This document shows positions 5,701 to 44,221 of a DNA stretch of 51,650 nt, piece after piece. The DNA comes from Fimbriiglobus sp. (GTDB lineage Bacteria; Planctomycetota; Planctomycetia; Gemmatales; Gemmataceae). A model generated the notes under the pieces. It worked only from the letters and a program-made list of their open reading frames with translations, had not been told where the DNA came from and searched no databases. The stretch is from NCBI GenBank assembly GCA_025362195.1, contig JANYHV010000204.1, positions 1-51,650 of the forward strand, in the 5' to 3' direction. Position 1 is the first letter of the stretch. Each line of letters opens with the position of its first letter. The position numbers were made by a program, and so were the translations under genes.

Positions 5701-8700
5701 TTACGGCTTGGCCCGCGTCGGGTAGGCCGGCCGCTTGACCTCGGCCTTCGGCTGCTTCTTCAGGGCTTCGAGCGCGAGCGCGATCGCCTTCTCCAGTTGC
5801 GGGTCACGGCCGGCGATCACGTCCTTCGGCCACATGTCCACGTCGTAGTCCGGGGCGACGCCCTCGTTCTCGACCGTGAACCCCTCCTCCGGCGTCCAGA
5901 TGGCGAAGCTCGGGGCGGTCACCGTGCCGCCGTCCATCAAAACCGGGTAGCCGCTGATACCGACCAGGCCGCCCCACGTCCGCTTGCCGACGACCGGCCC
6001 GACCTTGAACTTCTTGAACATGTACGGCAGCATGTCCCCGCCCGACCCGGCCCCCTCGTCGGCGATCATCACCTTCGGCCCGAACACGGCCGCACTCGGG
6101 CTACGCCACTCGGCCCCGTACCGCGGTGCCCAGTAGCTGGCGAACGGCCGGGTCAGCGCCTCGATGTAGTAGTCGGCGATCTGCCCGCCGCTGTTAAACC
6201 GCTCGTCGATGACGAGCGCTTCCTTGTCCACCTGGGAGTAGAAGTAGCGCTTGAAGTACGCCACGCCTTGGGCGGCCGTGTCCGGGACGTAGACGTACCC
6301 GACCCGCCCGCCGGTCGCCGCCTCGACCTTGCGCAGGTTGCCCTCGACCCACTCGCGGGTCCGCAGCGGCAACTCGGTGGCCAGCGGCTCGACGGTCACC
6401 GTGCGGCTACCCTTGCCGTCCGCGGTCGGCCCGACGGTCAGTTCGACGGTCTTGCCGGCGGTGCTTTCGAACAGGCTGTACACGTCGGTCGGCGGCTTCA
6501 AGTCGATGCCGCGGACGGCGAGCAGGTAGTCGCCCTCCTTCACGTCCACGCCCGGGGCGGTGAGCGGCGACCGGAACTCGGCCGTGAAGTTCAGCCCGCG
6601 GAGGATCGTCTTGAACCGGTACCGGCCGTCGGCGACCTCGTAGTCGGCCCCGAGCAGCCCGCCGCCGACCAGCTTCTTCTCGACGGCCCGTTCGCCGGGC
6701 GTCGTGTAACTGTGGCCGACGGCGAGTTCGCTGAGCATCCAGCGGATGACCTTGTACAGGTCGCCGCCGTTGTTGACGTGGTCGAGCATCGGCTCGTACT
6801 TCTTCTCGACGGCCGGCCAGTCGGCCCCGTGCATGTTCGGGTCGTAGAAGTAGTCGCGGTTGACCCGCCAGGCCTCGTGGAAGATCTGCCGCCACTCGGC
6901 CCGCGGGTCCACGCGGACCTCGATGGCGTCGAGGTTCAGCTTGCCGCTGCCGGCCGGCCCGGCCGGGGCCGCCGCCGCACCCCGGCCGCGTCCGCCGGGG
7001 GGAGCCGCCGCCGCACTCGGCTCGCCGCCGCTGCCGGTGGCACTGCCGACGAACCAGTCGCCGGCCTGCGAGTAGAGAACCTTCTTGCCGTCCGCGGTCA
7101 ACTCGTAGGTGCCGACGCCGGGCTGCACGGTCGTGACCTTGCGGGACTCCACGTCAAACCGGAGCAGCGTCGAGCCACCGCCCTGGCCGCCGTCCGGGCG
7201 GGAGAGCATGAACACCTGGCCGGCGGCCCCGGCGTGCAGGCGGGCGTAGCTGCCGGCCGGGGCGGGCAGGGCGATGATCCGCTGGTCGATGCCGTCGAAG
7301 TCGATGGCGAATTTGACGGGGGGACCGGCCGGGGCCTTCTTGGGGGCGTCGGGCTTCGCGTCGTCGGCCTTCTTGTCCTCGCCTTCGGGCTTCGGGTCGT
7401 CGAGGCGCGGCTCGTCCTGCTTCGGGTCGGGGACCGGCCGGCCGTTGGCGGGCAGGCCCTTCTCCTCGTCGCTCTCCTTCAAGAACGGCGACGCCGTGCC
7501 CTTGCGCAAGACCGCCATGTAGACGGCGAACTGCGGCGGGCGGGCGTCGGCCGACGACTGCGAGAAGCCGTGCTTGCTCAGCCCGGTGCTGTCGGACGAC
7601 AGGAAGTACAGGTACTTGCCGCCGGCGTCGAAGGCCGGGTCGGTCGCCTCGCTCTTGCCGTCGGTCACGGGGAACGACTTGGCCTGGTCCAGCGAGTAGG
7701 CGTACACGCGGGCGATGTGCGCCGGGGTCTCGGCGGTGTACGTGACCCACTTGCCGTCGGGCGACCAGGCCGACGCCTTCGCGCCGCGGGTGCGGCCGTA
7801 CTCGTCGGTGGCGATCTTGGTCACCTTCCCGGTGGCCACGTCCGCCCAGAACAGCGAGGCGGCGTTGTCGGCGAACAGGAGTTTCTTCGAGTCCCGGGAC
7901 CAGGCGGCGTCGGAGTAGAAGCCGCCGCCGCTCAGCGCGATCGTCTTCTTCTCGCCCTTGCCGTCTTGAGGCGCGAGGACGAGGTGGTACTCGCCGCCCG
8001 CGTCCGAGAAGTAGGCGACGGTCTTGCCGTCGGGGGACCAACTCGGCCCGCGCTCGTGGACGCCGGTCGTGTTCGTTAAATTGCGCGGGTCGCCCTTCTC
8101 GGCCGGGACGGTGACGATTTCGCCGCGGAACTCGATCGCGACCCGGCTACCACTCGGCGAGACGCCGGCGTCGCGGACGTACTTCGCCCCCTTGGCGAAC
8201 CGCGGCCGGGCCTCCGGAGCGTCGGTGGAGATGGCGATTTTGAGCCGCGTCGGCGTCTGCCCGATCTTCATCGTGTGCAGCCAGCCGGCCTGCTCCAGGA
8301 TCAGCGTCTCCTTGCCGTCGTGGTTGATGTCGAGGACCGGGAAGTCCTTGAACGCGGTGACCGGCTTGACCCCGTCGATCGGCAGGCTCTCCCCGGTCGG
8401 CTTGACGGCGAAGACGTTGTACTCGCCGGCGCGGTCCGACCGAAAGTAGACGGTGTCGCCGACCCAGTTCGGGTCGAGGTCGTTGCACCGGCCCTTCGGC
8501 TGTGGGACTTCGACGACCTCGTGGGTCTTCACGTCGTACAGCCAGATGCGGCTGTTCGTGCCGCCGCGGTAGTGCTTCCACTGGGCCGTGGCGTCCCGGA
8601 CCGGGGTGTACGCGACGTACTTGCCGTCCGGCGAGTAGCACGCCTCGAAGCCCCACGGGATCGGCAGTTGCGTCGGCATCCCGCCGGCCAGGGGCACGGT

Positions 8701-9123
8701 GAACAGTTGGGCGTGCCGGCTGCTGTGCGCGTTCCGATTGGACGCGAACAGCACCGACCGACCGTCGGGCGTGAACCCGCGGACCACGTCGGCCGCGGGG
8801 TGGGTAGTGAGCCGCGTGGGGGTGCCGCCGGCCGCCGGCATGGTGTACGCGTCGGTGTTGCCGTCGTACTGCGCGCTGAACGCGAGGAGCGACCCGTCCG
8901 GGCTGAAGACCGGGTTCGACTCGACCCCGAGGTCGGACGTCAGCCGCCGCGGGTTCTTGCCGTCGGTGTCCGCCGTCCACAAGTCCTCGCCGTAGACGAA
9001 GGCGATCGCCTTCGCACTGATCGCGGGCATCGACAGCAACCGGGTGTCGTCACCGGCCGCGACCGGCGGGCCGACCGCCGCCAGACAGGCGACGGTGAAG
9101 GAAAGGTAGCCGAGCGTTCTCAT
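5701..9123 (-). CDS. Tricorn-like S41 family periplasmic protease
   Basis: A 1140-residue exported protease. The signal peptide is MRTLGYLSFTVACLAAVGPP followed by VAAGDD. The N-terminal two thirds are repeated PD40/WD40-like blades (FSPDGSLLAFSAQYDG, YSPDGKYVAY, SWSPDGKTVAYFSDAGGE, WSRDSKKLLF), forming two propellers. A charged low-complexity insert (about residues 540-600) separates them from the catalytic part. That part contains VGHSYT, a PDZ-like segment (VDVKEGDYLLAVRGIDLK), and the nucleophile motif ADEGAGSGGDML with Ser near 1027. The family Glu lies in VENEGVAPD near 1085. Tricorn-like enzymes degrade peptides, with the propeller acting as a filter. The longer open frame upstream of 9123 lacks a signal and is unlikely to be used. 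It stands alone, convergent with the radical SAM gene. Confidence 0.9.
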   Translation of the reverse strand: MRTLGYLSFTVACLAAVGPPVAAGDDTRLLSMPAISAKAIAFVYGEDLWTADTDGKNPRRLTSDLGVESNPVFSPDGSLLAFSAQYDGNTDAYTMPAAGGTPTRLTTHPAADVVRGFTPDGRSVLFASNRNAHSSRHAQLFTVPLAGGMPTQLPIPWGFEACYSPDGKYVAYTPVRDATAQWKHYRGGTNSRIWLYDVKTHEVVEVPQPKGRCNDLDPNWVGDTVYFRSDRAGEYNVFAVKPTGESLPIDGVKPVTAFKDFPVLDINHDGKETLILEQAGWLHTMKIGQTPTRLKIAISTDAPEARPRFAKGAKYVRDAGVSPSGSRVAIEFRGEIVTVPAEKGDPRNLTNTTGVHERGPSWSPDGKTVAYFSDAGGEYHLVLAPQDGKGEKKTIALSGGGFYSDAAWSRDSKKLLFADNAASLFWADVATGKVTKIATDEYGRTRGAKASAWSPDGKWVTYTAETPAHIARVYAYSLDQAKSFPVTDGKSEATDPAFDAGGKYLYFLSSDSTGLSKHGFSQSSADARPPQFAVYMAVLRKGTASPFLKESDEEKGLPANGRPVPDPKQDEPRLDDPKPEGEDKKADDAKPDAPKKAPAGPPVKFAIDFDGIDQRIIALPAPAGSYARLHAGAAGQVFMLSRPDGGQGGGSTLLRFDVESRKVTTVQPGVGTYELTADGKKVLYSQAGDWFVGSATGSGGEPSAAAAPPGGRGRGAAAAPAGPAGSGKLNLDAIEVRVDPRAEWRQIFHEAWRVNRDYFYDPNMHGADWPAVEKKYEPMLDHVNNGGDLYKVIRWMLSELAVGHSYTTPGERAVEKKLVGGGLLGADYEVADGRYRFKTILRGLNFTAEFRSPLTAPGVDVKEGDYLLAVRGIDLKPPTDVYSLFESTAGKTVELTVGPTADGKGSRTVTVEPLATELPLRTREWVEGNLRKVEAATGGRVGYVYVPDTAAQGVAYFKRYFYSQVDKEALVIDERFNSGGQIADYYIEALTRPFASYWAPRYGAEWRSPSAAVFGPKVMIADEGAGSGGDMLPYMFKKFKVGPVVGKRTWGGLVGISGYPVLMDGGTVTAPSFAIWTPEEGFTVENEGVAPDYDVDMWPKDVIAGRDPQLEKAIALALEALKKQPKAEVKRPAYPTRAKP

Positions 9124-9325
9124 CGGGAATCTGCTCCGCGGATCGAGGGGGTGGGCCGAGAGGTGAGGGCATGATAGGCGGGCACGCCGCGCGGCACCAG
9201 ATGTCGAAGGCGCGCGAAGCGTTGGACTTGACCGCCCCCCGCGAAATGGCATAAGCCCGGTCTCACGGCGTGCCGGTCGGGGGATCAGGCGCGCGGGATG
9301 GACTCGCTTCCACGGGGGGATTTCG

Positions 9326-9811
9326 ATGCGACGCTCCGCACTTCTGGGTGCGCTCGGGGCGGCGACGGTTTTGGGCGCACTCGCCCACGCCGCCGAACCG
9401 CTGCCGCGCGACAAGGCCGAGACTCAACCCTGGTACGCCCGGCTCACGCCGAAACTGCCGGGGGACAAGAAGCCCGACCCGGACAAGACGTTCGCCGCGA
9501 CCCCGGCCCGGCCGCCGGTCGCCGTCGCCCCGCTCGAACCGGTCGTGCTGGCCGAGGCTCTGAAGGCCGAGCAGGACGCCTGGGACCGCCGGCTCGACGT
9601 GTGCCACAAGCTGCGCGTCGTCGGCAACGAGACGAACGACGAGGCGCTCTTGAAGCAGGCCAACGACCTCGAAAAGCAGGCGACGGCGCTGTACCACAGC
9701 CGGGCCGCGCGGCTCGGCGTCAAGGCCCCGCTCCGCGGCAAGCCCGAGGCGGCGACGCCCGAACCGGTCGCCGCAACCCCGGCCCGCTCGTTCAAGGTGG
9801 TGACGCCGTGA
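9326..9811 (+). CDS. Secreted hypothetical protein
   Basis: A 161-residue protein with a clear Sec signal (MRRSALLGALGAATVLGALA then HAAEPL). The mature part has a Pro/Ala-rich linker followed by a predicted helical segment (ALKAEQDAWDRRLDVCHKLR to LEKQATALYHSRAARLG) and a low-complexity tail. No named domain is seen. It is translationally coupled to the following lipoprotein by a 4-bp GTGA overlap. The pair (a helical periplasmic protein plus a small lipoprotein) is probably an envelope component of unknown role. The start codon has GGGGGG upstream and fits the signal peptide. Confidence 0.75.
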   Translation: MRRSALLGALGAATVLGALAHAAEPLPRDKAETQPWYARLTPKLPGDKKPDPDKTFAATPARPPVAVAPLEPVVLAEALKAEQDAWDRRLDVCHKLRVVGNETNDEALLKQANDLEKQATALYHSRAARLGVKAPLRGKPEAATPEPVAATPARSFKVVTP

Positions 9812-10152
9812 AAAAGCTGCTCCTGCTCGCGGCGTTCGGGGCCAGTCTTGGTTCGACCGGGTGCCTGTCGCTGCAACCCGTCGGCCTCATGGCCAAGCAC
9901 CTCGGCACCAAGCCGGCCGCGACGAAGACCGCCGACGGCGTGACCGTCCTGCCGGCGACCGACGCGCCGGCCGGGCCGCTGCTGCAAAAGGCCCCGCCCC
10001 CGCCGACGCCGTCGTTCCTGATCACCCCGGGGGAAGTGTCCGCGGCCACCGCCCCGGACGCCGTCGCCCGCCTGCTCAAGGAAATGGACGCCGACCGCCA
10101 GGCCCTCGCCACCTTCCCGAACTACGCCGAAGTCTCGACCGTCGGCCGGTAA
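9808..10152 (+). CDS. Small lipoprotein
   Basis: A 114-residue lipoprotein starting at GTG 9808, which overlaps the stop of the preceding gene. MKKLLLLAAFGASLGSTGC is a textbook lipoprotein signal with lipobox GSTGC. The mature part is Pro/Ala-rich and ends with a short amphipathic helix (AVARLLKEMDADRQALATF). No enzymatic motif is visible. It probably anchors or partners the coupled secreted protein upstream. The 3' flank contains a decayed gene tail and the palindromic repeat. Confidence 0.75.
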   Translation: MKKLLLLAAFGASLGSTGCLSLQPVGLMAKHLGTKPAATKTADGVTVLPATDAPAGPLLQKAPPPPTPSFLITPGEVSAATAPDAVARLLKEMDADRQALATFPNYAEVSTVGR

Positions 10153-10936: not shown

Positions 10937-13595
10937 GGGCGTCCTCCTTGTGTTCGGCGTTACCGTTCTGGGTCGGGTCGTAAATCTTGCGGCCGTCGGA
11001 CGGGGCGACTGCGGGCGACTGGCGGGCGTGGACGGCGACCAGCCGGCGGACTTCGTTCAGGATGTCCTCCTGGCCGACGGCCCCCTTGCGGATCACCTTC
11101 TCGACGTGCCCGTTGAGCCGCGCCCGCTCCTCGTTCGTCAACTCCTTGGCGGTCAGCACCACGACCGGCACGTCGGCCCAGTCGGGGTTCTTCCGCATCT
11201 CGTCGAGGAACTCGAACCCGTCCATCTCGGGCATCGTCAGGTCAAGGATGACCGCCGCCGGCTTGACCTCGGCCAACCGGGTCAAGGCGACGCGGCCGTT
11301 GTTCGCCTCGGCCACCTGCCAGCCGCCGTGGGCCAGCGCCCGGTGGACCGCTTCCCGAGTGTCGTCGTCGTCTTCGACCACCAGCACCGGGCCGGCCGCG
11401 GACATCGCCCGGTACTTGTTCAACACCGTTACGAGGCGGTCCCGGTCCACCGGCTTGGTCAGGTAGTCGGACGCGCCGAGGGCGTAACCCAGGTTCCGGT
11501 CGTCCACCATCGTGTGCATGACGACCGGCACGTCGTCCAACGTCGGGTCGGCTTTCAGCGCGCTGAGCACGGCCCACCCGTCCATCTTGGGCATCATCAC
11601 GTCGAGGACGATCAGGTCCGGGCGTTCGGCGGCGGCCTCCTCCAGGCCGGCCTTGCCGTCGGCCGCGGTGCGGACCCGGTAGCCCTCTTTGATGAGCACG
11701 CGGCTCAACACCTCACGGGCCGCGGGGTCGTCGTCGATGACCAGCACCGTCAACCCGCCGGCCTTGCCGCCGACGGTCGGCAGGTCGATCTCGGCCATCG
11801 AGTCGGTCGGCGTCGGGGCCACGTCGGCCGGCAGCCGGACGGTGAACGTCGTCCCCTTCCCGGCCTCACTGGCCACGTCGATGCTCCCGCCCATGAGTTC
11901 GCAGAACCGCTTGACGATGGTCAGCCCGAGGCCGGTGCCGCCGAACTTTCGCGTGGTCGAAACGTCGGCCTGGGTGAACGGCTGGAACAGCTTGCCGACC
12001 TGCTCGGGGGTCATGCCGATGCCACTGTCCGCGACGCTCATGGTAATCCCGTCGCGGCCGGCTTCGACGCTCCGGGTTACCTTCAGTGAGATCGTGCCGT
12101 TCTCGGTGAACTTCGAGGCGTTCGAGAGCAGGTTGAAGAGGATTTGCCGCACCTTGGTCTGGTCGGCGTTGACCGCCCCGGCGTCGTCGGCGACGGCCAG
12201 GGTGAGCGCATTGTGCCGCTTCTCGAACAGGGGTTTCGAGGTCGTCGCCACGTCGTTCACGACTTCTCGGAGGTCGAACCGTTCGAGGTACAGGTCCATC
12301 TTCCCGGCCTCGATCTTCGACAGGTCGAGGATGTTGTTGATGAGACCGAGCAAGTGCCGGCCGGCCGAGCGGATCTTTTCGAGGTCGGGCAAGAACGCGT
12401 CCAGCCCCTGGTCTTCGGCCTCTTCCTGGAGCAGTTCGCTGTACAGGATCACGGCGTTCAGCGGGGTGCGGAGTTCGTGGCTCATGTTCGCCAGGAAGGT
12501 GCTCTTGGCCTGGTTGGCCGCTTCCGCCGCTTCGGTGGCGAGCTTCAAGTCTTCTTCGGCCCGCTTGCGGGCGGTGATGTTGCTGAACGACACGACGGCC
12601 CCCATCGACTCGCCGTCCTCGCGCATCGGGGCGGACGCGTACTCGACCGGGAACGACGTGCCGTCCTTGCGCCAGAAGACTTCGGTGTCGAGCCGGACGC
12701 TCCGCCGGCGGGCCTTCAAGCCCTGGTAGATCGGGCACTCGGTCGCCGGGTACGGGCTGCCGTCCGGGTGCGTGTGGTGGGCGACGGCGTGCAGGTTCTT
12801 GCCCATCAGATCGGCCGGGTCGTGCCCGAGCATCCTGGCCCCGGCGGCGTTGATGAAGGTGCAATTGCCGTCGGGGTTGACCCCGTAAATGCCTTCGGCG
12901 GTCGATTCGAGGATCATCCGCGAGAACCGGGCGGCTTCGCGGGCGGCCTCCTCCTCGGCCTGGCGGGCGGCAAGGTCGCGGCGAATCAGCAGGAAGGCCG
13001 CGACAAGGACGCCGGCCGCGAACAGGCTGGCCAGTGCGAAGGCGATGTTCGTCCGCCGGTAGCTGAGCCGCGTCTGCTCGGCGCGGGCGGCGAGCAGCGC
13101 GCGCTCGTCGGATTCCATCGCGGCAATCGCGTCCCGGACGACGCTCATGGCCTGCCGGCCGCGATCGATCCGCTTCGCGTCGACGACCCCCTGAGTCGCG
13201 CGGCGGGCGACGTTCTCGTTCATGAGGAGGAACTTGGCGGCGACCGCTTCGCGCAGCGTCTGCGTCCGGTCCTGTTGTGACGGGTTGTCGGCCGTCAGTG
13301 CGGCGACGGCGTCGATTTGCTTCGCCACTTCGGCCGAGGCGGCGAGGTAAGACGCGCGTAACGACTCGTCGCCGGCGATAACGTAGCCGCGCTGGTTGGA
13401 CTCGGCTTCGAGGGTGACCGCGTACACGTCCCCCAGGCCGTGCAAGACCTGGTGCGTGTGGTCCACCCAGCCCGCGTCGTCGTAGAGTTGCCGCGTGTTG
13501 CGGTGCGCGACCAGGGCGTTGACCGCGAGTACCGCGAGGGCCAACGCCAGGCCGATCCAGGCGGCCCGCGCGATCAGTTTGCGAATGGCAGTCAC
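10908..13595 (-). CDS. Hybrid sensor histidine kinase with CHASE3, PAS and two receiver domains
   Basis: An 895-residue inner-membrane kinase. TM1 is at about residues 13-31, a CHASE3-like periplasmic domain at 35-180 (ESNQRGYVIAGDESLR is typical), and TM2 at 184-204. A PAS domain spans about 222-342 (ILESTAEGIYGVNPDG). HisKA has its phospho-accepting H373 in MSHELRTPLN. The HATPase region follows (N box near NLLSNASKF; G boxes ADSGIGM and GGTGLGL). Two receivers have acceptors D665 (LIVLDVMMPKMDG) and D785 (AVILDLTMPEMDG). In the second receiver the usual KP pair reads RKG. The GTG at 13595 overlaps the permease stop by 4 bp, and this start leaves room for TM1. Confidence 0.92.
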   Translation of the reverse strand: MTAIRKLIARAAWIGLALALAVLAVNALVAHRNTRQLYDDAGWVDHTHQVLHGLGDVYAVTLEAESNQRGYVIAGDESLRASYLAASAEVAKQIDAVAALTADNPSQQDRTQTLREAVAAKFLLMNENVARRATQGVVDAKRIDRGRQAMSVVRDAIAAMESDERALLAARAEQTRLSYRRTNIAFALASLFAAGVLVAAFLLIRRDLAARQAEEEAAREAARFSRMILESTAEGIYGVNPDGNCTFINAAGARMLGHDPADLMGKNLHAVAHHTHPDGSPYPATECPIYQGLKARRRSVRLDTEVFWRKDGTSFPVEYASAPMREDGESMGAVVSFSNITARKRAEEDLKLATEAAEAANQAKSTFLANMSHELRTPLNAVILYSELLQEEAEDQGLDAFLPDLEKIRSAGRHLLGLINNILDLSKIEAGKMDLYLERFDLREVVNDVATTSKPLFEKRHNALTLAVADDAGAVNADQTKVRQILFNLLSNASKFTENGTISLKVTRSVEAGRDGITMSVADSGIGMTPEQVGKLFQPFTQADVSTTRKFGGTGLGLTIVKRFCELMGGSIDVASEAGKGTTFTVRLPADVAPTPTDSMAEIDLPTVGGKAGGLTVLVIDDDPAAREVLSRVLIKEGYRVRTAADGKAGLEEAAAERPDLIVLDVMMPKMDGWAVLSALKADPTLDDVPVVMHTMVDDRNLGYALGASDYLTKPVDRDRLVTVLNKYRAMSAAGPVLVVEDDDDTREAVHRALAHGGWQVAEANNGRVALTRLAEVKPAAVILDLTMPEMDGFEFLDEMRKNPDWADVPVVVLTAKELTNEERARLNGHVEKVIRKGAVGQEDILNEVRRLVAVHARQSPAVAPSDGRKIYDPTQNGNAEHKEDARATDSDRRG

Positions 13596-20901: not shown

Positions 20902-21939
20902 ATGGTCCGCTCTCCCCGCAAGTCGGGATTCACGCTGATCGAGTTGTTGGTGGTGATCGCCATCATTGCGATCCTGATCGGCCTGCTCCTGCCCGCCGTC
21001 CAAAAGGTCCGCGAGGCCGCCGCGCGGATGAAGTGCCAGAACAACTTGAAGCAGTTGGGCCTAGCCCTTCACGGCTTCCACGACGTGAACAAGAGCTTCC
21101 CGCAGGGTAAAAGCCCGTCGTTCCCCGCCCCCGCGCCGGTCTACGCCCGCTGGTCGATCCACAGCCAACTGCTGCCGTACATCGAACAGGACAACCTGTT
21201 CAAAAGCATCGACTTCACCCGCCCGCCCGAGACCCCGGGGATGCAGGGCGTGATCAACTTCATGCCGGCCTACCAGAACCCGGGCCGGGAGAACGCGGCC
21301 GCGTGCCGGACGTCCGTGACGACCTTCCTGTGCCCGTCCGACCCGGCCCCGCAGCCGGGCGATTGGCCGGGCCAGAACAACTACTTGGCCAGCCAAGGGG
21401 TGCAGTTCTTGTGCGACCTGACCGAGTCGCAGGCGAGCACTATCGCGCCGAACGAACGGCCGGACGGCCCGCTGTATTTCTTGAGCAAAGTGAAGATGAC
21501 CGACCTGTCCGACGGCACGAGCAACACGGCCGTCTTCAGCGAGAAGCGGCGCGGCCAGGGCAACCCCGACCCGAAGACGGACCAGAAGGTGATGCCGGTG
21601 CAATCGACCCTGGACGCCGCTTACAACACGTGCAAGGGACTCAACCCGTTGACCGCGACCCCGCTGACCAGCAAGCAGGGGTACAGTTGGGTCATGGGCG
21701 AGATGTGCTGCACGACCTACAACCACGTCTCGACCCCGAACACGACGACTTGCGCCAGTACCGGGTTCCCCGGCAACATGTCGAACATGGCGATGGTGGT
21801 GCCGCCGTCGAGTGCGCACACCGGCGGGGTCAACGTGGTCTACGGGGACGGTTCGGTGCGGTTCATCCAGGACGCGATTAGCCTCGCCGGGTGGCGGGCG
21901 ATGGGAACGATCAAGGGCGGCGAGGTGATCAGCGAATGA
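20902..21939 (+). CDS. DUF1559 prepilin-like protein
   Basis: A 345-residue protein of the large planctomycete DUF1559 family. The N-terminus carries a type IV prepilin signal ([20 protein letters not shown], then [16 protein letters not shown]), cleaved before Phe. The family continuation is [17 protein letters not shown]. The C-terminus has the family's H-x9-DG motif, seen as [17 protein letters not shown]. These proteins are thought to be pseudopilin-like surface or secretion components; individual roles are unknown. The ATG at 20902 sits directly before the prepilin leader with GAGGGAA upstream. It overlaps the next gene by 4 bp (ATGA) and heads the run leading to the metal-efflux genes. 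Confidence 0.93.
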
Positions 21940-28305: not shown

Positions 28306-28983
28306 ATGCCGCTGACCGTCCCCCTGTTCGTCGCCAAGTGGAAGGCCGCCAGCCTGTCCGAGCGGTCGTCGTACCAGCAGCACTTCCTCGACTTGTGTAG
28401 CCTGCTCGACGTGACGCCGCCGGCCGAGGAGGACCCGACCGGGGCGTCGTTCACCTTCGAGAAGGGCGTGACCAAGGCCGACGGCGGCAAGGGCTTCGCC
28501 GACGTCTGGCGGCGCGGCTGCTTCGGCTGGGAGTACAAGGGCAAGCACAAGGACCTCGACGCCGCCTACCGCCAACTGCAGAACTACCGCGAGGCCCTCG
28601 AGAACCCGCCGCTGTTGGTCGTGTGCGACCTCGAAACCTTCGTCGTCCGCACCAACTTCACCGGCACCCCGACCGAGCGGCACGAATTCCACCTCGACGA
28701 CCTGGCCGACACCAAGACCTTTGGCCTGCTCCGCAACCTCTTCCACGCCCCCTACGAGTTGCGGCCGGGCAAGACGCAGAAGGAGATCACTGAGAAGGTC
28801 GCGGCCAAGTTCGCCAAGCTCGCCGACGGCCTGCGCGGCCGGGGGGTCGAGCCCGAGCCGGCGGCCAGTGCTGCCGTCGTAAGGCAATTGAGGTCAAGAG
28901 CCGACCGGTGGCCGGTCCGTTACTATAACAAGATGGCCACTTTTGACTTCTGCAGGACTGCCGAAAGGCTTCGTTCGTGTTAA
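28306..28983 (+). pseudogene. MmeI-like restriction-modification enzyme, N-terminal nuclease fragment
   Basis: A 225-codon ORF whose first about 187 residues match the N-terminus of MmeI-like type IIL enzymes: FVAKWKAASLSERSSYQQHF, LDAAYRQLQNYREALENPP, LLVVCDLETFVVRTNFTG and LRPGKTQKEITEKVAAKFAK. The nuclease motif D-x9-E-x-K is intact (D66, E76, K78 in ADVWRRGCFGWEYKGK). Homology stops abruptly at about 28866 (GVEPEPAA), where relatives continue into the helical spacer and methyltransferase. The last about 38 residues are unrelated. The stop TAA overlaps the ATG of the next gene (TAATG). It could still make a small nuclease-domain protein, but as a restriction enzyme it is broken. The C-terminus survives at 30177-30641. 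Confidence 0.8.
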
Positions 28984-29993
28984 TGCAGCAATACGCCCTC
29001 GTGGCGACATCCGCCGGGCTCGTCGTCGGCGTCGTAGGCTTAGTGCTCGTCGGAGTCTACCGGAGGGATCTCGGTCGGTCATTCAACGGGTTCTGGTCGA
29101 AGTGGATTTCGGTGCCGATGCAGGTCTTGAGCCTGCTGTCTTCAGCGGGCGCGGCGTTCGACCGACCGGAGGCAAAGGCGGACTGGGTGGCGAACGTCGT
29201 GGTCGGGATTGCCGCGTTCGCCGTCTGGACTACGCTCCAAATCTTAGTCGATTACTACTTCAAGGAAGGCGAGCGCTTCGACTTCGAGCGGCTCGAAGAT
29301 TCCCAGAGCCGGAACGATGCTTACATCTGGCTGTTCGGTTCGATGCGTAAGCTCGTCGATTTCAAACTGAGTCACATTCGGGGCGAGTTGGATTCCAGTA
29401 AGGGCAAGCCAACGGTCAAGAGCATCCGCGAATGCCTCCGCACGGGTGACGAGTTAGACGGCTTCCTGACCGCGGTGTGCCAATTTTACATCGGTTTAGT
29501 TTCGGGCCAGTCCCCCAAGCCCCCGAACTTCCGGGCCGTTTTGTACGTCAGTCAAGGCGGGTACATGACGCCGATCCGCGGCAGCAGTCACAACGACAAT
29601 TTGTGGGAGCCGTCGCCGTCCTTCGAGGCTAACCACGCGGCTTTCGCACTCACTGGCTGTCAAAATCCGGCACTAGTCACAGTCTGCATCAACCGACAAG
29701 CAACAATAATGTTCGGGGATACTTTAGCCGCCTCTGACCGTGGAGAGTTCGAATTTCTCCACGCCGATCAGCGGAGCTACTTGCGGTCGATTATTGCGTG
29801 CCCGCTGGGTAAAGTCTGGCGACCCGACCGCAAGTTGGCCCAGTGCGCGTTGGTCGTTGACACCAACGTGCCGGACTTTTTCCTCGAAAGCGACCGGCCA
29901 TTTTTAGAATTCTGCCTGCGCGAGTTCGCCAGCCGAATTAAACTGGAACTGATGCTCGAAGCCATGCTCACCAGCGGGGAGGGTTCGCCATGA
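28983..29993 (+). CDS. Two-TM protein with possible GAF-like domain, on lower-G+C insert
   Basis: A 336-residue protein (ATG 28983; GTG 28977 adds two residues). One hydrophobic helix lies near the N-terminus (LVATSAGLVVGVVGLVLVGV) and another at about residues 70-93 (VANVVVGIAAFAVWTTLQIL). A soluble C-terminal part of about 240 residues follows. Its second half (NFRAVLYVSQGGYMTPIRG, YLRSIIACPLGKVW, AQCALVVDTNVPDFFLESDR, and a closing helix) has the strand order of a GAF-type sensor domain; this is a weak, fold-level impression. I recognise no family name. Base composition is clearly lower in G+C than its flanks, with TTA and ATA codons that neighbours avoid, indicating transfer. It overlaps the next small gene by 4 bp. 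Confidence 0.75.
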   Translation: MQQYALVATSAGLVVGVVGLVLVGVYRRDLGRSFNGFWSKWISVPMQVLSLLSSAGAAFDRPEAKADWVANVVVGIAAFAVWTTLQILVDYYFKEGERFDFERLEDSQSRNDAYIWLFGSMRKLVDFKLSHIRGELDSSKGKPTVKSIRECLRTGDELDGFLTAVCQFYIGLVSGQSPKPPNFRAVLYVSQGGYMTPIRGSSHNDNLWEPSPSFEANHAAFALTGCQNPALVTVCINRQATIMFGDTLAASDRGEFEFLHADQRSYLRSIIACPLGKVWRPDRKLAQCALVVDTNVPDFFLESDRPFLEFCLREFASRIKLELMLEAMLTSGEGSP

Positions 29994-30133
29994 AGACGGC
30001 CGAAGACCAACGGCGAGCAGCCGAGGCACGAGTCGCGCGTAAGGAAGCGCTCAAGAAACAAATCACGGAGAGCGTGCGAAAGGATTTGGCGGCACTCCGG
30101 GAACACGACGCTCGACTGCATCGCAAAAAATAA
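29990..30133 (+). CDS. 47-residue charged helical protein coupled to the membrane gene
   Basis: A small ORF starting at the ATG that overlaps the preceding stop (ATGA) and ending at TAA 30131-30133. The product is almost entirely helical and charged (MKTAEDQRRAAEARVARKEA, then LKKQITESVRKDLAALREHD and ARLHRKK), with basic residues dominating. It could form a short coiled coil or bind nucleic acid or acidic lipid. No domain is recognised. Strict coupling to the two-TM gene argues that it is real and works with it. It lies inside the same lower-G+C segment that replaced the middle of the restriction gene. Confidence 0.6.
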   Translation: MKTAEDQRRAAEARVARKEALKKQITESVRKDLAALREHDARLHRKK

Positions 30134-30176
30134 CTGACTTGATCTGACTCCGGGGTGTCGCTCCGAGTCTCTGTGA

Positions 30177-30641
30177 ACTGTTTTCGGGATTCGGCCGGAC
30201 TGGGTAGCCGATCCGACGGACGCCCAGCGCGAGGCGGTCGCGGCGGCGGCGAAGGAACTCGACGGCTTGCGGAGCAACTGGCTCAACCCGCCGGAGTGGA
30301 CCGCCACCGAAACCCTCACCTTCCCCGGCAGCGTCGGCGGGCCGTGGCGGCGCTACGTCACCGAACCGGACGCCCGCGGCGTCGGCACGGTCCGCTACCC
30401 GCGCACGGTGCCGAAGTCGCCCGAGTTCGCCGCGAAGCTTAAGGACCGCACGCTGACGAAGCTCTACAACGAGCGGCCGGCGTGGCTGGCGAACGCGCAC
30501 ACGAAGCTCGACGCCGCCGTGTGTGCCGCCTACGGCTGGCCGGCGACCGTCGCCGCCGACGACTTGCTAGCGAAGCTGCTCGCGCTCAACCTGTCCCGTG
30601 CCGGCAGCGCCGCCCCCGCCGCGACCGACGACCCGGAGTGA
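30177..30641 (+). pseudogene. MmeI-like restriction-modification enzyme, C-terminal fragment
   Basis: The frame opens after a TGA at 30174-30176 and has no ATG or GTG near its beginning (TTG 30267 is internal). From about 30183 it reads FGIRPDWVADPTDAQREAV, LRSNWLNPPEWTATETLTFP, ARGVGTVRYPRTVPKSPEF and LTKLYNERPAWLANAHTKLD, then AAYGWPATVAADDLLAKLLA LNLSR. This is the standard C-terminus of MmeI-like DNA methyltransferase/restriction proteins. The methyltransferase catalytic motifs (FxGxG and NPPY) that should precede it are absent. It is the distal remnant of the gene that begins at 28306. It converges with the sigma54 activator gene. Confidence 0.8.
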
Positions 30642-30690
30642 CGGCGCTCATCGCCTTCGCCTGCGGCGGAGCCACGAACCGGATGGCCGG

Positions 30691-30716
30691 GGCGAAGTGT
30701 GGGGACACTTGTCGCC
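30691..30716. terminator. Hairpin between convergent genes
   Basis: GGCGAAGTGT (30691-30700), a GGGG loop and ACACTT-GT-CGCC form a stem with a 2-nt bulge. It lies between the restriction-gene remnant and the stop of the sigma54 activator. There is no T tract on either side, so a role in termination is only likely from its position. Confidence 0.35.
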
Positions 30717-30730
30717 GGGAAATCGACCGC

Positions 30731-32206
30731 CTACCCGACGCGACCCTGGCGCTCTTCTTCGTACTTGTGCAGCTTGTTGTACAGCGTCTTCAGGCTGATG
30801 CCGAGTTCGGTCGCCGTCGCCTGCTTGTTGCCCGTGTTCTTGGCGTACACGTGCAGGATGTAGTCCATCTCCACGTCGGACAGCGTCTTCGCGGACGCGC
30901 TCGGGTCGGGCTGAGTGGCCGGCGGCGGGATGTACGTCGTCGGGGCGGTCGCCGGGGTCGGGGCGTAGGACGGCATCGACAGCGTGGCCGGGCCGGTGTG
31001 CGGGGCCAGGCGGGGGGCGCGCACGTCGTAGGGCAGGTGGTGCGTCAGGATCGGCTGGCCGGCGGCGACGATCCAGGCGTACTCCATCGCGTTCGCCAAC
31101 TCGCGGACGTTGCCCTGCCAGTGGTAGTTCAAAATCACCCGCATCGCCTCGTCGGTCAGCAACTCGACGACGGCGGCGTACGGCTTCTTCGCCGCCCGCG
31201 CGAGCAGGTGCCGGGCGAGTTCGGGGATGTCCTCGCGGCGCTCCCGGAGCGGCGGCAGGTGGATGTGGAACATGTTCAGGCGGAACAACAAGTCTTCGCG
31301 GAAGGTGCCCTCGACGACCATCTGCCGCAAGTCGCGGTTGGTCGCCGAGATGACGCGGACGTCGACGATGGTCGCCTCGTTGGCCCCGACCGGGCGGATC
31401 TCGCCGGCCTCCAGGAAGCGGAGGAGTTTGACCTGCGTCTGCTTGTCGAGTTCGGCCAGTTCGTCGAGGAGCAGCGTGCCGCCGTTGGCGACCTCGAACA
31501 TGCCCTTGCGGTCGGCCTGGGCACCGGTGAAGGCGTTCTTCTTGTGCCCGAACAGTTCGCTCTCGACGAGTTGCGGACTCAGCGCCCCGCAGTTCACCGG
31601 GATGAACGGCATGTCGGCCCGGCGTGACTTCGAGTACAGGGCGCGGGCGACGACTTCTTTGCCAGTCCCCGTTTCGCCGGTGATGAGCACGCGGGCGTCG
31701 GTCCCGGCGATCTGATCGACGAGCCGCTGAACGGGCAGCATCGCCGGGCTGGCCCCGATCAAGAACCCCGGCCCCTCGGCCGCTTGCACCCGCGACTCCA
31801 GAGCGACGGCCTTGTTCTTGAGCCGCTTCTTGTCCTGGATGCGCAGGAAAACGGCCTCGATCTCGGCGAGTTGGCACGGCTTGCGGAGGTAGTCGCACGC
31901 CCCGAGGCGCATGGCCTGGACCATGCTCTCTTCGCTGGCGTACCCGGTCATCATGATCGCTTCGGTGTCCGGGCTGACCTGCTTGAGCCGCTGGAGCACG
32001 TCGATCCCGGACAGGCCGGGCATGCGGATGTCGAGCAGGGCCACGTCGAAGCTCTGGGCGGCGATGGCCTGGAGGGCCTGCTCGCCGTTGGCGCACACGA
32101 CCACGTCGTGGCCGAGGGCTTTCAGCTCGATGCGCATGAACTCTTGGAGTTGACGCTCGTCGTCCACGAAGAGGATGCGGAGCCGGTTGTGCGGTTGCGT
32201 GGCCAA
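30731..32206 (-). CDS. NtrC-family sigma54-dependent response regulator
   Basis: A 491-residue activator. The receiver domain (residues 10-125) has D59 as phospho-acceptor (VALLDIRMPGLSG) and a KP pair at 109-110. The AAA+ domain has Walker A GETGTGKE (177-184) and Walker B TLLLDELAELD (244-254). The sigma54-contacting loop reads NAFTGA (224-229) instead of GAFTGA. The arginine-finger region is NYHWQGNVRELANAME. A Pro/Thr-rich linker precedes the Fis-type helix-turn-helix (ATATELGISLKTLYNKLHKY). It activates sigma54 promoters after phosphorylation, probably by the kinase encoded 88 bp upstream on the same strand. Targets are not evident in the window. Confidence 0.93.
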   Translation of the reverse strand: MATQPHNRLRILFVDDERQLQEFMRIELKALGHDVVVCANGEQALQAIAAQSFDVALLDIRMPGLSGIDVLQRLKQVSPDTEAIMMTGYASEESMVQAMRLGACDYLRKPCQLAEIEAVFLRIQDKKRLKNKAVALESRVQAAEGPGFLIGASPAMLPVQRLVDQIAGTDARVLITGETGTGKEVVARALYSKSRRADMPFIPVNCGALSPQLVESELFGHKKNAFTGAQADRKGMFEVANGGTLLLDELAELDKQTQVKLLRFLEAGEIRPVGANEATIVDVRVISATNRDLRQMVVEGTFREDLLFRLNMFHIHLPPLRERREDIPELARHLLARAAKKPYAAVVELLTDEAMRVILNYHWQGNVRELANAMEYAWIVAAGQPILTHHLPYDVRAPRLAPHTGPATLSMPSYAPTPATAPTTYIPPPATQPDPSASAKTLSDVEMDYILHVYAKNTGNKQATATELGISLKTLYNKLHKYEEERQGRVG

Positions 32207-43315: not shown

Positions 43316-44221
43316 GTGTCACACGTCCGTCGCCGGCGGGGCTTCACGCTCATCGAACTGCTGGTGGTCATCGCCATCATCGCCATCCTGATCGGCCTGC
43401 TCTTGCCGGCCGTGCAGAAGGTCCGGGAGGCGGCGGCGCGGCTGCAGTGTACGAACAACTTGAAACAAATCGGCCTGGCGATGCACAACTACCACGGGGC
43501 CAACGACCGCTTTCCGCCGGGGTTCACGTCGCGGACGCTGACCGTCAACGGCGACGGCCTCGGGCCGGGCTGGGGGTGGGCCGCGCTCATCTTGCCGTTC
43601 GTCGAGCAGGACAACCTGTTCAAGCAAATCGATCTGACCAAGGACATCACCGACCCGGTCCACGCCCAGGTCCGGGTGACGACGCTGAAAGTTTACCGCT
43701 GCCCGTCCGACGCCCCCTTGGGCGACACCTGCGACATCCCGACCGGGGCCGGGACCGTGAAAGTCGCGTTCGCCAACTACGTGGCGATGGGCGGCACGTT
43801 CGAGGTGACCGCCTTCCCGGACCAGGGCAACGGCTGCTTCTACCGGAACAGCCGCACCCGCGTGGCCGACATCCCGGACGGGACGAGCAACACCATCTTC
43901 GCCATCGAGCGCGAGAGCAAGCGGTCCCCGCGGACGACCTGGGTCGGGGCGGTGACCGGGTCGGTCAACCCCCCGATCAACCCGGCCTACGACGACGAAG
44001 GCCCGCCGACCTTGATCTTGACGAACACCGGGCCGGCCGGCGAAGGCCGCGTGCCGAACAACGCCCTGGACCACGTCGAGGACGCCAGTTCCCGGCACAC
44101 GGCCGGTGTGAACACGCTCCTCGGCGACGGCTCGGTGCGGATGATCCGCAACAGCATCAATCCCGCGACCTGGGAAGCCCTCGGCACCCGCGCGGGCGGC
44201 GAAGTCGTCGGCGATTACTAA
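43316..44221 (+). CDS. DUF1559 prepilin-like protein
   Basis: A 301-residue DUF1559 protein starting at GTG. It has the prepilin signal [20 protein letters not shown] then [17 protein letters not shown], followed by [20 protein letters not shown]. The C-terminal H-x9-DG motif reads [19 protein letters not shown], and it ends [14 protein letters not shown] prepilin peptidase would cleave before the Phe of FTLIE. It is followed 28 bp later by a membrane-anchored WD40 protein. It is shorter than, but clearly related to, the gene at 20902. The role of individual family members is unknown. Confidence 0.93.

Follow-up and report, generated by a model that had tools for sequence, protein, structure and literature searches.

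In Helicobacter pylori, hrgC, a putative membrane-associated toxin gene, has replaced part of the PabI restriction-modification (RM) system, and fragments of the RM genes have been left behind (PMC4615327). The same source cites an earlier report of hrgA replacing a restriction gene. A literature search that covered few subscription papers gave no account of such swaps in planctomycetes or in MmeI-like genes. The window analyzed here is the whole of contig C416 (51,650 bp), one of the 509 contigs that make up a 5.66-Mb draft genome, and it encodes the two ends of an MmeI-like gene with other DNA between them. The locus is akin to MmeI and the type IIL/IIG enzymes (PDB 5HR4; PMC4833311) in that it retains, as scars, the nuclease domain and C-terminal bundle typical of that family, but unlike them it lacks a methyltransferase and has hardly any target-recognition domain.

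An MmeI-like gene that has lost its core

The locus at 28306 to 30641 is made up of the following parts, given with the evidence for each.

28306 to 28866, plus strand: N scar, the MmeI-like nuclease domain and the start of the helical spacer (Pfam MmeI_N, PADLOC IIG, aligned intact relatives)
28867 to 28982, plus strand: 5′ junction region (end of homology; sequence)
28977 to 29993, plus strand: gene for a 338-aa protein, GTG start with ATG 28983 as an alternative (Gemmataceae relatives, structure, GAF_2 in two of seven members)
29990 to 30133, plus strand: 47-aa basic peptide, probably helical (similar short charged ORF after the GAF gene in all readable copies)
30134 to 30209, plus strand: 3′ junction region without enzyme homology (aligned relatives)
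30210 to 30641, plus strand: C scar, the C-terminal helical bundle of the same enzyme (PADLOC IIG, 61–73% identity to intact relatives)

The N part matches Pfam MmeI_N (E=1.2e-15), its residues 5–187 match PADLOC type IIG (E=5.9e-45), and in alignment it is 54–64% identical to intact 1006–1017-aa relatives from other planctomycetes (L031/G037, L032/G062 and L033/G141). The N-terminal PD-(D/E)XK nuclease domain is present, with the catalytic-type residues D66, E76 and K78 kept. The C part matches PADLOC type IIG at E=2.6e-18 over profile positions 923–1027 and is 61–73% identical to relatives that also match the N part; its Pfam MmeI_C score of 23.2 bits is under the cut-off of 27. The original prediction, made from the sequence alone, that the 28306 ORF and a downstream frame are the N and C ends of one MmeI-like enzyme, in order and on the same strand, is borne out by these profiles and shared relatives. 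When the ends were aligned with the possibility of two different parent proteins in view, the same intact relatives matched both, in order. The predicted C-terminal frame of 30183 to 30641 does hold the C end, but its start was placed too early, homology beginning near 30210.

In L032 numbering the window gene retains residues 1–185 and 842–974, and the gap between the two ends is about 655 residues, from 185 to 842. Aligned to MmeI and read against the published domain map (PMC4833311), the gene still encodes the nuclease domain, the beginning of the helical spacer and the C-terminal bundle; the remainder of the spacer has been lost together with the methyltransferase and nearly the whole target-recognition domain (TRD). 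This loss relative to intact relatives agrees with the prediction, which had the helical spacer and methyltransferase missing along with most of the target-recognition part. Homology resumes at residue 842, which is the border between the TRD and the C bundle, and no gamma-class N6-adenine methyltransferase domain is present at the locus. Since it has no methyltransferase and hardly any TRD, the window gene cannot act as a type IIL/IIG enzyme; with its DNA-reading and methylation parts all lost, the enzyme is dead.

In place of the core lies 1.34 kb of different sequence (approximately 28867–30209), close to the 1.3 kb first estimated. It is poorer in G+C, as had also been noticed, with 58% in the GAF ORF against 69% in the contig. 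A repeat search at the junctions likewise matched expectation in finding no terminal inverted repeats or target duplications, only short chance repeats. The insert contains just two ORFs, neither of which matches transposase or recombinase families, and there is no second copy of it in its own genome. The insert was considered as a repeat element and rejected: it has one genomic copy, and its sole paralogue, on contig C90, is 28% identical. Replacement of the core by a different cassette is supported over a simple insertion; the original reading had preferred replacement to simple transposition.

It is extremely unlikely that the ends and the insert were misjoined in a metagenome-type assembly. 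The 509-contig draft is 87% complete and 4.3% contaminated and the insert differs in G+C, which would be in keeping with a chimera; however, both ends belong to one gene with the right order and strand, the junctions are without a repeat, and like architecture is found in independent assemblies. A whole-protein search for the missing core elsewhere in the same assembly returned only the two ends and, elsewhere in the contigs, one distant match of 24% identity, and thus the core was not misplaced by assembly.

The insert as a conserved two-gene operon

The frame of the N scar stays open for 225 codons and runs to a TAA at 28981–28983, which overlaps the ATG at 28983 (TAATG), and the 47-aa gene overlaps the GAF gene via ATGA. 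Because of these overlaps the N-scar frame, the GAF gene and the peptide could be translated as one overlapping chain. A scan for promoters and terminators returned no promoter-like site, and terminators at chance level.

Pfam, NCBIfam and PADLOC contain no match to the 338-aa protein and PHROGs none of significance, and a sequence-profile search against solved structures returned nothing significant. Eight further matches, at 23–41% identity, are all encoded by Gemmataceae and include the C90 paralogue (28%). Among 343 genomes drawn from the phylum the insert was detected in its own genome only, in a search that scored at most six candidates per genome and may therefore miss distant relatives. 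The cassette family is so far restricted to Gemmataceae, and so the cassette, originally called foreign, is not foreign at the family level. The structure predicted from seven sequences (pLDDT 78) has helices at its N end, then a helix of 74 residues, and a GAF fold at the C terminus. The GAF fold has a VIA Z of up to 14.3 over 157 residues (rmsd 3.0) with many GAF entries and a Foldseek E of 3e-4; by sequence, Pfam GAF_2 is recognized in only two of seven family members. Hydrophobic stretches suggest that the protein has two N-terminal membrane helices.

In every copy with a readable downstream end (8/8, the window included), all of them from Gemmataceae, the GAF gene is followed by a similar short, charged ORF. 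Since this ORF accompanies the GAF gene in all eight, the insert is not random DNA but an operon, conserved and complete. The two-gene family, a putative 2TM-GAF protein and a small basic peptide, is previously undescribed, conserved, and intact in the window. What is known of the GAF cassette with regard to a possible toxin-antitoxin role is its conserved two-gene arrangement.

The other copies of the cassette sit amid ordinary genes and not defense genes. In the window the locus is flanked by genes for RND efflux and for a sigma-54 response regulator, neighbors that lend no support to its description as a defense locus. The insert has no sequence match among known plasmids and phages, and a viral fold library gave low-identity matches only; exchange with phage, which had also been proposed, is thus hinted at by fold but not by any sequence match in phage records. 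In the empty-site comparison for the C90 paralogue, one flank only was matched. The operon may encode a membrane sensor or an exclusion-type module with the basic peptide as partner. A defense role would be in keeping with the company of the other cargo described below and with the fold likeness to phage membrane-GAF proteins.

Codon constraint in the two scars

Window-specific changes were counted at sites conserved in three other relatives and compared between codon positions 1+2 and position 3. In the N scar the 1+2/3 ratio is 0.75–0.91, against 0.23–0.51 in intact lineages (p=0.003). Because the two classes of position change almost equally, the N scar, which is evolving as if without constraint, is most likely dead. 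The C scar shows normal codon constraint, with no difference from other lineages (p=0.54), and it may be younger than the N scar or have been exchanged separately.

The scars might instead still work, with a free nuclease domain and the membrane GAF protein forming a new split effector. The retention of D66, E76 and K78, the 225-codon open frame with its TAATG overlap with the next gene, and the normal constraint on the C scar would all be consistent with such an effector. It is nevertheless a very improbable reading: positions 1+2 of the N scar change nearly as fast as position 3, elsewhere the GAF operon does not have a neighbor of this kind, and the scar at another hollow locus (L036) is frameshifted.

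Hollow and cut MmeI-like genes in relatives

Further hollow genes (L034 and L036) were found by mapping an intact protein onto other Gemmataceae loci, another (L052) came from a contig scan, and one-ended scars lie beside other genes.

Hollow gene L034 (G035): cargo an HTH_66-like gene (HTH_66 under the Pfam cut-off) and a PIN_10 gene
Hollow gene L036 (G029): cargo GmrSD, 705 aa; scar frameshifted
Hollow gene L052 (MAG RI_301), 8020 to 9154: cargo a 235-aa membrane protein and a 149-aa protein
One-ended scar in G053: beside a PLD nuclease
One-ended scar in G006:C193: beside a methyltransferase-like fragment, judged by eye from its motif
One-ended scar L074: N end kept, then a type II methyltransferase (MTase_II)
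One-ended scar in G080: beside a type II methyltransferase (MTase_II)
One-ended C scar in G063: beside a 250-aa ORF (L173, 4399 to 5148, minus strand) upstream of the scar

The two-gene cargo of L052 has no match in Pfam or PADLOC and is a second candidate module revealed by an MmeI-like scar. Its membrane protein was compared with the 338-aa protein of the window as a possible relative and has no similarity to it. The 250-aa ORF beside the G063 scar has no family match.

The contig scan, made with the N-end profile, kept 80 loci of 574 N-end relatives, most of them intact or full-length with a frame break; L052 and L074 are among the 80. L054, L065, L084 and L108 are truncated genes that keep an N end but no C scar, and unrelated genes come next (in L108 a PDDEXK_3 protein lies further downstream), and G071 has a decayed MmeI-like copy. 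Hollow or cut genes make up five of eight strong N-end matches in Gemmataceae against about one of 20 in other planctomycetes (Fisher p=0.003), a small and partly hand-classified sample. Nine loci have cargo beside a scar, and at every one of them it is codirectional with the dead gene (two-sided p=0.004). Because similar core swaps with different cargo each time are found in several relatives, the gene for the MmeI-like enzyme seems to be a place where defense-type genes are exchanged repeatedly.

The 5′ junctions of the window, L034, L036 and L074 all fall within L032 residues 185–202, about 18 residues around AAHFLMKLMFCMFAED. The 3′ junctions of the window (842) and L034 (836) are within six residues of each other in L032 numbering, at TFPFPEPTDAQR, on the TRD/C-bundle border. 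G053 breaks at 112 and G006:C193 at 117, around RFEIHTNFT; short N scars are under-represented because the search began from the N end. The junctions of L034 are sharp relative to the intact G062 allele. The conserved stretches at the junctions would suit short-homology recombination; neither microhomology nor a recombinase was identified for the swap.

A history in two steps, in which the core was first deleted by decay, or the cassette was inserted and the core was lost afterward, with no exchange of core for cassette, is possible but rather unlikely. Truncated genes that keep the N end but have no C scar occur fairly often (L054, L065, L084, L108), decayed copies such as that of G071 exist, and codon constraint differs between the N and C scars, all of which such a history would accommodate. 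It fits less well with the complete absence of core from every hollow case, with cargo that always runs along the direction of the dead gene, with the sharp junctions of L034, and with the fact that a cassette plus leftover core was seen at no locus.

Position of the gene unit in close relatives

The G035 and G062 genomes permit an empty-site comparison. Their flanking DNA is approximately 92–94% identical, and where the hollow gene of G035 occupies approximately 3.0 kb the matching G062 site has approximately 0.2 kb. The intact G062 gene is at a different site, at which G035 has a Ser/Thr kinase-WD40 gene (L203, G035:C1, approximately 6853–9939). Since the sites differ, MmeI-like units, hollow ones included, do not have the same positions in close species, whether through gain, through loss or through movement. 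L034, the hollow G035 gene, is mosaic relative to L032, with 80% nucleotide identity on the N side and 94% on the C side. Because the scars differ in constraint in the window and in identity in G035, a one-step swap is not proven and the two ends may differ in history.

Several short sequences were also seen. A flank piece of approximately 98 bp is present twice at the site of the kinase-WD40 gene. A 32-bp inverted repeat, GGCGAGCGGGGGGCGTCAGCCCCC, lies directly after the MmeI-like stop in G035 (L034, approximately 6742–6825), with a half copy in G062 (L032, near 9721). A sequence of approximately 90 bp just upstream of the intact G062 gene (L032, approximately 6573–6669) recurs in at least nine other places of the G062 genome at 80–95% identity, so that one end of the variable unit carries a dispersed repeat. 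Another, of approximately 155 bp, is found twice in the window (20926–21078 and 43336–43490), matches L032 at 12387–12541, and recurs at a great number of sites in the genomes of four members of another genus; it is probably the DNA-conserved N-terminus of DUF1559 genes.

In the empty-site comparison for the window's own locus, the same-genus genomes G001 and G002 have no MmeI-like gene, and to the left of 30731 their DNA is unlike that of the window. The response-regulator gene (window 30731–32206) is common to three same-genus genomes, and the DNA past its stop (window 30642–30731) is different in each; this stretch is a variable junction.

Discussion

We consider it probable that an intact MmeI-like gene lost its core to a complete two-gene operon, inserted on the same strand, by recombination at two junctions. 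The spacer, methyltransferase and target-recognition region would have been exchanged for the operon, and both junctions may have formed in one step, by a homology-assisted or illegitimate double crossover. Through the TAATG and ATGA overlaps, the operon could then be coexpressed from the promoter of the old enzyme. On this reading the window event is one instance of a recurrent process in Gemmataceae, in which MmeI-like shells trade their core for other, often defense-type, cargo, and the gene unit itself also shifts its genomic position. Of this, the anatomy of the locus, its recurrence, the conserved operon and the empty-site comparison for the G035 gene are observed; the one-step crossover and the role of the operon are inferred. 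An extended form of this model, in which the MmeI-like ends act as homology arms of docking shells for one-step cassette swaps, the cassettes travel with the shell, and the GAF/47-aa unit is an anti-phage module, is conjectural and we regard it as unlikely.

If exchange of this kind has occurred, dead restriction genes are not mere debris, and their ends mark, and may help, the exchange of defense-type genes. MmeI-like N and C scars would then be a simple search handle for new candidate defense modules. The analysis brings out an undescribed family of 2TM-GAF proteins with a small basic peptide, and a recurrent replacement of gene cores at domain borders outside Helicobacter.

The predicted overall fold of the 338-aa protein resembles that of a membrane-anchored GAF phage protein, A0A9E7NJ10 of Gordonia phage Finkle (Foldseek E=1.7e-6), although sequence identity is only about 13%. 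As in defense islands and other cases of cargo exchange, variable and often defense-type cargo lies between conserved sequences; the flanks here, however, are the two ends of a dead restriction gene and not core genes, and the neighborhood is not an island. A further likeness is to the hrgC/PabI locus, where part of an RM locus has similarly been replaced by a segment with another gene and short RM remnants flank both sides. In H. pylori it is one locus and one cargo that has spread in the population, and hrgC runs in the opposite direction from the RM genes, whereas here a single bifunctional gene has lost its core, the cargo is varied and always codirectional, and the junctions are near domain borders. 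Replacement of an RM gene that leaves remnants is already known from Helicobacter; its recurrence in one bifunctional family with varied cargo is new.
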